From a bacterium (lineage in GTDB: Bacteria; UBA9089; CG2-30-40-21; SBAY01): 5,365 nt of DNA. Positions 1 through 5,132 of this stretch are shown in pieces; the first letter of the stretch is position 1, and each line of letters opens with the position of its first letter. The position numbers were made by a program, and so were the translations under genes. Under the pieces are notes generated by a model that did no database searches, was not told the DNA's origin, and saw only the letters and a list, made by a program, of their open reading frames with translations. Location: the NCBI GenBank assembly GCA_040757115.1, contig JBFLYA010000254.1, forward strand, positions 1 to 5,365. The letters run 5' to 3'.

Positions 1-85
1 CGGTGTCAAGCAAACCTGGCCCAAGAGTTCGATGCACCGCTATAGCGCATCCAATGACTCTATTCGATAATTCATCAAATTTCAC
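1..85 (-). CDS. GxxExxY family protein, N-terminal part (runs off window)
   Basis: Read on the minus strand, this frame gives VKFDELSNRVIGCAIAVHRT and then LGPGLLDT before the window edge. This matches the N-terminus of GxxExxY proteins, a small family of about 125 residues with a PD-(D/E)XK nuclease-like fold and no settled function. Only the first 28 or so residues are visible, so the catalytic region cannot be judged. The start is uncertain. I chose the GTG at 83-85, but the frame stays open upstream through the terminal repeat (reading TIHHEGYGEHE), and no ATG or Shine-Dalgarno sequence is visible. The first 60 nt of this unit (62-121) match 4625-4684 at 58 of 60 positions, so a relative of the same element sits in the ATP synthase operon. 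It may be intact or broken beyond the edge. Confidence 0.72.
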   Translation of the reverse strand, partial: MKFDELSNRVIGCAIAVHRTLGPGLLDT

Positions 86-121
86 TTCGTGCTCTCCGTA
101 CCCTTCGTGGTGAATAGTTAC
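62..121 (-). repeat. Terminal repeat and gene start of the GxxExxY element (copy 1)
   Basis: On the minus strand this begins GTAACTATTCACCACGAAG, the same 19-bp end found at both termini of the 4625-4836 element, and continues into the GxxExxY reading frame. It differs from the copy at 4625-4684 at only two positions. The end is built from 9-mer units of the CACGAAGRR type. The outer edge at 121 lies 8 nt from the 312-bp repeat that starts at 129. Confidence 0.75.
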
Positions 122-1253: not shown

Positions 1254-1380
1254 CAAAATCAAAAATTAAATATTAAAATGCAAAATGACATATCAAATAT
1301 CATATCAAAAATCAAAGAGCAAATATCAAAATTAAGGAATTCTTTTATTCTTATTTTTGATTTTTAATATTTGATTTTTG
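1254..1380. repeat. AT-rich dispersed repeat with inverted arms
   Basis: The stretch consists of CAAAAATCAAA/AATATTAAA-type words. The left arm (about 1254-1278) is roughly complementary to the right arm (about 1352-1380). The core at 1275-1298 matches 5248-5271 at 22 of 24 positions, and that second site contains the start codon of the four-helix-bundle ORF. From the ATG at 1278 a 29-codon frame begins MQND.SN, like the MQNYKSN start of that ORF. The repeat may therefore include a decayed start of such a gene. I do not call a gene here. Confidence 0.55.
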
Positions 1381-1604
1381 TAAGCGTTCAGGTGGTGTAA
1401 CAAAAGGAGATGTGGAGATTAAGGAGATAGGGAGATATTATAAAAAATTGAAATTAATAGAAATTTATGGAAATTTGTTGTTTTCCCCAATCAATTTCTA
1501 CCTATTTCTATAAATTTCAATCTATTTCTATTATCTTATCTCCATATCACTCTTATCTCCTTATCCCCTTTCTTACACTTTTGATATATAGCCTGAACGG
1601 TTAC
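1380..1604. mobile_element. Palindromic mini-element (MITE-like), about 225 bp
   Basis: The ends are GTAAGCGTTCAGG (1380-1392) and CCTGAACGGTTAC (1592-1604), inverted repeats with one mismatch in 13. The body is also an imperfect palindrome. The left arm runs GTGTAACAAAAGGAGAT, then GGAGATTAAGGAGATAGGG, then AATAGAAATTTATGG. The reverse complement of the right arm runs GTGTAAGAAAGGGGATAAGG, then AGATAATAGAAATAG, then GAAATTTATAG. It has no coding capacity. The right-hand part (from 1450) is duplicated at 129-283, where the left arm is missing. This is the structure of a non-autonomous element moved by a transposase acting in trans. No clear target-site duplication is visible. Confidence 0.65.
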
Positions 1605-3872: not shown

Positions 3873-4622
3873 ATGGAAGCAGAGGCACCCTTTTTATTTC
3901 AATTTTTAGTCAACTGGCTAAATCAATATTTAGGAAACTACATTCCCATAAATGCTACGATTGTTATGACCTGGTTGATTTCACTTGGGTTAATAGGTTT
4001 TGCCCTGGCGGCATGTTCTTCTTTAAAAATGGTTCCCAGGGGACTACAAAATCTATTAGAACTCTTAGTTGAACAGGTTCTTCAACTCTTAGAGGGCATT
4101 ATGGGACATAAGAAGGCAAAGTTCTTTCTACCTTTAATGGGCACACTGACCCTGTTTATTTTAATTTCAAACCTGATTGGACTCATTCCGGGATTGAAAG
4201 CACCAACAAGTGATTGGAACACAACTATTGCCTTAGCTATGATTGTATTTATCCTGACACACTTTTTTGGAATAAAACAAAAAGGATTAATTGGTTATTT
4301 TAAGCATTTTGTAGGTCCTATCTGGTGGTTAGCTCCATTGATGGTGCCCATACATCTGATCGGAGAAATAGCGAAACCTTTTTCCTTATCTATCCGACTA
4401 TTTGCTAATATGATGGCAAAACATATGACCTTAGGTTGCCTGGCACTATTGCTTGTTCTGTTTTCAAAGAAGGCAATTCTATTTGTCCAAACTTTATTTA
4501 TTCCTGTATTTTTACCACCAATAGTTATGCTTTTAGGGGTGCTTACTTGCCTTATTCAGACATTTGTTTTTGTCTTTTTAGCCATAGTCTATATTTCCAT
4601 TGCTATGGAAGAAGAACATTAA
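3873..4622 (+). CDS. atpB: F-type ATP synthase subunit a
   Basis: Subunit a forms the ion half-channels beside the c-ring in the membrane Fo sector. The 249 residues are a normal length with five to six membrane helices. Recognisable regions are FFLPLMGTLTLFILISNLIGLIPG (84-107), APTSDWNTT (110-118), KHFVGPI (144-150) and SLSIRLFANMMAKHM (171-185) with the essential Arg175 (E. coli aArg210) and Asn179. The last helix IQTFVFVFLAIVYIS has Gln229 (aGln252), and the protein ends in acidic EEEH. The ATG at 3873 is preferred over an upstream GTG at 3822, because it follows an AAAGGGAA Shine-Dalgarno and removes a tail overlapping atpI. The gap to atpI is 19 nt. The mobile-gene remnant begins two bases after the stop codon. 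Confidence 0.96.
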   Translation: MEAEAPFLFQFLVNWLNQYLGNYIPINATIVMTWLISLGLIGFALAACSSLKMVPRGLQNLLELLVEQVLQLLEGIMGHKKAKFFLPLMGTLTLFILISNLIGLIPGLKAPTSDWNTTIALAMIVFILTHFFGIKQKGLIGYFKHFVGPIWWLAPLMVPIHLIGEIAKPFSLSIRLFANMMAKHMTLGCLALLLVLFSKKAILFVQTLFIPVFLPPIVMLLGVLTCLIQTFVFVFLAIVYISIAMEEEH

Positions 4623-4624
4623 AA

Positions 4625-4796
4625 GTAACTATTCACCACGAAGGACACGGAGAGCACGAAGTGAAATTTGATGAATTATCGAATTCATGAAGCTCAAATA
4701 TTGACATATATGAAATTGGCAAATATCAAGGTTGGTCTATTGATAAATTTCAATGTGGAAAGATTGAAAGAAGGCATAAAGAGATTTGTTCTGTAA
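4625..4796 (+). pseudogene. GxxExxY family protein, internally deleted remnant
   Basis: The first part (4625-4684) encodes VTIHHEGHGEHEVKFDELSN, the N-terminal piece also seen at the left edge of the window, and then hits a TGA at 4688. A second part in another frame (4686-4796) encodes HEAQILTYMKLANIKVGLLI and NFNVERLKEGIKRFVL followed by a stop. This is a good match to the C-terminus of GxxExxY proteins. A full family member has about 125 residues, so about 70-80 central residues, including the putative nuclease core, are missing and the two parts are out of frame. The junction near 4682-4687 (GAATTC) may reflect short-homology deletion. The remnant cannot make a working protein. Confidence 0.8.
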
Positions 4797-4836
4797 CATC
4801 TTCGTGTCCTTCGTGCTCTTCGTGGTGAATAGTTAC
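4625..4836 (+). mobile_element. 212-bp GxxExxY-type mini-element with 19-bp terminal inverted repeats
   Basis: Both ends carry a perfect inverted repeat GTAACTATTCACCACGAAG (4625-4643, and reversed at 4818-4836). Further in, both ends continue with related 9-mer units of CACGAAGGA/CACGAAGAG type. Between them lies a broken GxxExxY gene. The element occupies almost the whole atpB-atpE gap: it begins 2 nt after the atpB stop codon and ends 9 nt before the atpE Shine-Dalgarno. The left 60 nt match 62-121 of this window at 58 of 60 positions. Flanking A-rich bases (TTAAAA, ATAAAA) could be a degraded target duplication, but this is weak. Confidence 0.75.

Positions 4837-4859: not shown

Positions 4860-5132
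<273 letters not shown>

Follow-up and report, generated by a model that had tools for sequence, protein, structure and literature searches.

A MITE-like unit with IS66-type ends and a gutted GxxExxY gene between atpB and atpE, and the inverted iterons found around GxxExxY genes

Several described systems bear on a 212-bp unit situated between two ATP synthase genes of the bacterium under study. Ends starting with GTAA and 8-bp repeats are documented for IS66 elements (PMC11946415, PMC12888890), including a GTAAGCG start (PMC11946415). The unit resembles IS66, IS66-derived MITEs and tIS66 in its GTAA start, in sharing its terminal 13 bp with IS66 genes of the phylum and in the 8-bp duplications retained by many of its sister elements. 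It differs from IS66 and tIS66 in that it has no transposase, contains inner iterons and the remnant of a GxxExxY gene, and, like its close kin, shows no duplication. The comparison with REPIN/RAYT concerns the inner layer: like REPINs, the iterons of GxxExxY occur as scattered palindromic doublets accompanied by a low-copy gene flanked by the same repeats, and no target duplications were found around the doublets. Yet, GxxExxY is a predicted PD-(D/E)XK nuclease rather than a Y1 HUH transposase, and its repeats are arrays of 8-9-bp iterons; as the enzyme is unrelated, we do not assign the GxxExxY-iteron system to REPIN/RAYT, although RAYTs may be present beside GxxExxY in the hairpin-bearing genomes.

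Two types of cassettes are also comparable. As in mobile insertion cassettes, GxxExxY can be the only gene between inverted ends with duplications (loci L095, L098, and L100), but this passenger has inverted iterons of its own and is broken in most copies. Uncapped GxxExxY units with attC-like borders (L328, L224) recall integron gene cassettes, whereas the unit described here has no attC and lies inside an operon. Our searches of the literature for the iteron sequences, TIGR04256 and PF13366 retrieved nothing relevant, and the association of GxxExxY with dispersed inverted iterons appears not to have been described in the literature searched. The GxxExxY family is widespread; to our knowledge, no function has been assigned to it and hardly any publications mention it.

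The 212-bp unit and its relatives in the genome

The window, i.e., the whole stretch of 5,365 nucleotides that was analysed, contains the following features at and around the atpB-atpE spacer:

3873-4622, plus strand: atpB, F-type ATP synthase subunit a, intact (TIGR01131, above cut-off)
4625-4836, plus strand: MITE-like unit of 212 bp, a gutted GxxExxY gene enclosed by iteron arms and IS66-type ends
4625-4637, plus strand: outer left end GTAACTATTCACC, IS66-type, 13 bp
4635-4661, plus strand: left iteron arm ACCACGAAG-GACACGGAG-AGCACGAAG
4680-4790, plus strand: GxxExxY gene remnant, C-terminal third (profile positions 82-116 of 116; TIGR04256, E 2.4e-9)
4800-4826, minus strand: right iteron arm, inverted
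4824-4836, minus strand: outer right end, a perfect inverted copy of the left end
4863-5132, plus strand: atpE, subunit c, intact, preceded by a ribosome binding site of its own (TIGR01260, above cut-off)

The sequence-only reading had proposed that a unit of 212 bp, bounded by 19-bp inverted repeats without mismatch, encloses a gutted GxxExxY gene, and we located this unit exactly at 4625-4836. The 19-bp ends (GTAACTATTCACCACGAAG) are perfect, and the arms reach 37 nt with 86% complementarity. The unit is composed of two layers, namely outer IS66-type ends of 13 bp and an inner 9-bp iteron of the CACGAAG type. The gene remnant scores 39.3 bits against a TIGR04256 cut-off of 35, with full genes of the same genome reaching up to 160 bits, and the N-terminal start of the protein (KFDELSN) is retained as well. 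The unit is short, has inverted ends, carries no transposase and occurs at unrelated sites, as is characteristic of MITEs. Taken as a local feature, it is of an ordinary kind, an IS66-ended MITE whose GxxExxY passenger is broken.

The unit starts 2 bp past the atpB stop codon, and the atpE ribosome binding site (AGAAAGGGGGATG) is preserved, so that insertion without disturbance of either gene, as had been suggested, is borne out. In the congener G001, whose atpB is 98% identical, the atpB-atpE spacer does not contain the unit and carries a different small palindrome instead, for which reason this species offers no clean empty site here; G002 and G003 likewise have spacers without the unit. Conservation of the spacer had been named as an observation that would speak against mobility; the spacer is not conserved, and because all three relatives are devoid of the unit, its insertion was probably a recent event on this scale. 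The hairpin expected from pairing of the ends in the atp transcript is also predicted: the RNA fold of the region is much more stable than that of shuffled sequences (z -6.6), and the unit is thus predicted to add a long stable hairpin to the spacer transcript.

We found at least five copies of the unit in the genome, including that of the window, which are 97-99% identical and lie at unrelated sites, with flanks that switch exactly at GTAAC and GTTAC. The end 19-mer occurs 117 times in 4.3 Mb (up to 2 mismatches) against 0 for a reversed-pattern control, and is therefore far beyond chance. Sister elements with the same end class keep other parts of the gene, an N-terminal half in a 268-bp element and the C-terminal two thirds in one of 292 bp; such differences in the retained part are as expected of internal deletions from one kind of parent. 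Full or near-full GxxExxY genes are situated between the same class of ends in this genome, with perfect 8-bp duplications at L095, L098, and L100, and so are deletion forms with gene remnants and perfect 8-bp duplications (L104, L108, L109). The genome search for end pairs thus agrees with the earlier view of the 212-bp unit as a deletion derivative of a mobile GxxExxY unit.

Outer ends and target duplications

Among 89 un-nested GTAA...TTAC pairs in the stretches examined, 28 are bordered by perfect 8-bp target duplications, against 0.5 expected from shuffled pairings. IS66 genes with related GTAA-starting ends were detected both in this genome, where a decayed transposase gene is bounded exactly by GTAACCGTTCAGG...CCTGAACGGTTAC (L119), and in relatives from the phylum, where one IS66 gene is bounded by GTAACTATTCAGC (L187) and another, intact, by GTAACTACTCAGG (L186). 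At L196, GGTGAATAGTTAC, which is the 13-bp end of the window unit itself, directly follows the stop codon of IS66 tnpC. The GxxExxY element at L098 is flanked by the duplication GATAGGTG, and in the congener G001 the same site is uninterrupted and contains GATAGGTG once; the empty site sought in close relatives was thus found for this element, and it provides direct evidence for the mobility of GTAA-ended GxxExxY elements as complete units. No 8-bp target duplication is present at the atp copy (CATTAAAA / ATAAAAAG, 3/8 match), for which reason we term the 212-bp unit IS66-ended and not a proven product of IS66 transposition. As for an intact IS66 with these ends in the same genome (an assembly of 462 contigs), only copies with stop codons or fragments were found.

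The duplications are distributed unevenly among the sister families. Units with CACGAAG iterons at both ends have none (perfect 8-bp duplications in 0/16 cases in G000, the genome of the window, and 0/4 in G001, i.e., 0/20), whereas a family that is just as diverged but carries the iteron at a single end has them in 12 of 16 cases. Age as the cause of their loss was rejected, since this equally diverged family keeps its duplications. On the same ground, IS66 may not have been the mover of the two-iteron subfamily. Such units either took another route, perhaps that of the iteron hairpins described below, or their long arms mislead short-read assembly; the atp copy in the window is safe from such an artefact because its flanks are syntenic.

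The proposal that GTAAC... ends flank GxxExxY genes holds in this genus. Outside it, the genes mostly do not have these ends; GxxExxY genes of relatives without them had been named as counter-evidence, and for the outer layer this is what we found. The idea that GTAAC ends accompany GxxExxY everywhere was thus rejected, and by sequence comparison the ends are of IS66 type and lineage-specific.

Inner iterons, scattered hairpins and the GxxExxY protein

Relatives without the GTAACTATTC cap match the unit only from its position 11 inward, at ACCACGAAG, and GxxExxY loci elsewhere were therefore examined for iterons. The locus set comprised the best 80 matches of a pattern-limited scan, which come from many phyla including archaea and favour one subfamily; an iteron pair was defined as C[AG]C[AG][AG]AG-N1-3-C[AG]C[AG][AG]AG. 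Pairs were found upstream in forward orientation at 55/79 loci, downstream in reverse orientation at 59/76, and on both sides at 45/75, against 0-3 of about 70 (about 1%) in control windows located 0.8-1 kb off the loci. The arms within a locus resemble each other more than mispaired arms do (mean 17.8 vs. 9.2). The genes had previously been regarded as isolated orphans, a view that does not hold for most of the loci sampled, where inverted iterons lie on both sides.

In distant GxxExxY subfamilies the iterons differ in sequence but have a similar period, examples being CGCGGAT, ACAGGAT, CACGAAT, CGCAAAG, GGAGATAAG, and GGAGAAATGG, and loci with their own iterons at a period of around 9 bp include L140, L144, L146, L089, L094, L160, L091, and L095. 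Each subfamily thus appears to possess its own iteron, judging from pairings read by eye. In a diverse set, flanks within a locus were again more similar than mispaired ones (17.5 vs. 8.1, permutation P about 5e-5). In this set of 23, within-locus flanks are equally similar in direct and inverted comparison, partly because some of them are whole hairpins, while in the larger set the inverted bias is clear. We take it from these comparisons that the inner iteron, and not the GTAAC end, is the more general companion of GxxExxY. Two uncapped GxxExxY units, L328 (G001:C89) and L224, are bordered by sequences that look attC-like by eye, suggesting integron-type cassettes; L224 harbours a near-parent of the 212-bp unit that is interrupted by a single stop codon.

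Iterons of this type are also dispersed without the gene. The numbers of pairs were 128 in G041, 101 in G042, and 163 in G080, against 3, 1, and 0 for the reversed control. In G061 and G077 the reversed control gave tens of matches too, and the iteron counts there are less trustworthy. The gene-less hairpins examined are inverted doublets of about 50-90 bp that break off sharply near TT[CA]ACCAC; a search at offsets 0-11 around those of G042, G080, and G049 detected no target duplications. The 27 inverted pairs counted in G042 include 25 of hairpin size, one with arms 2.5 kb apart, and a single pair of gene size, which encloses the one GxxExxY gene of the genome. The 1-2-4 spacing of one arm of this gene is also the commonest among the scattered arms (17 of about 39), and in both G042 and G049 gene-less hairpins have the same spacing pattern as the arms of the gene. 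Across 386 genomes, 10 or more pairs were present in 40 of the 88 with GxxExxY and in 4 of the 298 without it (odds ratio 61, P 3e-25, a value that is too small because the genomes are not independent lineages, although the direction is consistent); one of these four, G004, has a GxxExxY remnant. The remaining 48 of the 88 contain fewer than 10 pairs of the tested iteron, in part since the pattern is restricted to a single iteron type and spacing.

GxxExxY corresponds to TIGR04256 and PF13366. A 117-residue model (pLDDT 94.5) has Cas4 SSO0001 as its nearest solved fold (Z 9.6, rmsd 3.3, 96 residues), followed by weaker matches to lambda-type exonucleases and Holliday-junction resolvases, and the residues D63, E73-x-K75, and Q87-x3-Y91 are conserved. 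The model shows a predicted Cas4-like PD-(D/E)XK nuclease fold, which is a statement on fold and not on activity. A role in a defence system was considered and rejected, as PADLOC gave no match beyond weak Cas4 similarity.

Origin and movement of the unit

We consider the unit to be best explained, with a probability of roughly two in three, as a non-autonomous MITE-like element which derives from an iteron-GxxExxY parent and has IS66-type ends. The parent would have been a GxxExxY gene between inverted CACGAAG iterons. Such units would have gained IS66-type outer ends in this genus, lost most of the gene through internal deletion and then spread as gene-less pieces, one of which would have entered the atpB-atpE spacer, most likely once the lineage had diverged from the sister species. 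As mover of the GTAA-ended class, the most likely candidate is a transposase of the IS66 family that recognises the 13-bp ends in trans; this proposal draws on the shared ends and the 8-bp duplications, from which we infer the enzyme. In this view the inner iterons form the more general layer, belonging to GxxExxY and probably serving as binding sites of the nuclease.

A bolder reading, which we hold tentatively and at less than even odds, makes the nuclease itself the mobiliser: GxxExxY would recognise the inverted iterons and spread both full units and gene-less hairpins, the 212-bp unit among them, without duplications and in the manner of RAYTs with their REPINs, and the IS66 ends would be a later add-on. 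It would account for the inverted iterons around the gene across phyla and the own iteron of each subfamily, for the abundance of pairs in genomes with the gene (40/88 vs. 4/298) and their gene-less hairpins, arm-like in spacing in G042 and G049, as well as for the absence of duplications from both hairpins and two-iteron units; the conserved nuclease residues and the Cas4-like fold point the same way. Yet, boundaries in this genus lie at GTAAC and not at the iteron edge, many elements have 8-bp duplications of IS66 type, the tested iteron is below 10 pairs in 48/88 genomes with the gene, and GxxExxY has no known enzyme activity. Its wider form, in which the 120-residue GxxExxY spreads its own iterons, one kind per subfamily, as a REP-like system of bacterial and archaeal phyla with no relation to RAYTs, and the window unit is an IS66-capped gene-less offspring, is in our view just as tentative. 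The combination of gene, inverted iterons and scattered gene-less hairpins gives GxxExxY a testable role, and the link offers an origin for very common unexplained repeats, such as CACGAAG-GACACGAAG and CGCAGAG-ACGCAGAG; if the nuclease does spread them, REP-like DNA would have a second enzyme behind it, independent of the first.

Alternatively, the gene and its iterons could be repeated cargo of several carriers, such as IS66 and integron-like cassettes, with the iterons serving regulation or the function of the nuclease rather than mobility. The uncapped near-parents between attC-like sequences (L328, L224) fit this idea, and capture of passenger genes is documented for IS66 elements (PMC12888890), but it leaves unaccounted for the scattered gene-less hairpins of one-gene genomes, e.g., the 25 hairpin-size pairs of G042, and we regard it as unlikely. 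It is highly improbable that the repeat is a conserved functional atp spacer, for instance an RNA element, and not a mobile unit: the predicted hairpin is stable and the spacers of relatives also contain short palindromes, but unrelated sites of the genome hold at least four further copies, and G001, G002, and G003 do not have the unit at this position.

Outside the atp spacer, two further units were recognised in the window:

2-121, minus strand: second GxxExxY unit, of which the contig edge leaves the left end and the N-terminal part, with the same 19-bp end at 103-121
1380-1604, plus strand: GTAA-ended unit of 225 bp with GGAGAT-type iterons, GTAAGCGTTCAGG...CCTGAACGGTTAC, flanks matching at 6/8 positions

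The former covers TIGR04256 positions 1-23 (E 6e-4), under the family cut-off. Positions 121-420 and 1440-1765 are near-identical stretches containing GTAA-ended and CTCTGCG-type pieces, and the window has the appearance of a patchwork of nested mini-elements. Two small overlapping ORFs of 82 and 89 aa at 621-1128 on the minus strand, which have no Pfam or NCBIfam match, show a toxin-antitoxin-like arrangement. A further MITE-like repeat with the ends GTGTCGTGTTGA...TCAACACGACAC was observed at L002, L099, and L101, and also at L344 (G001:C88), i.e., in the congener, where it lies within a coding region.
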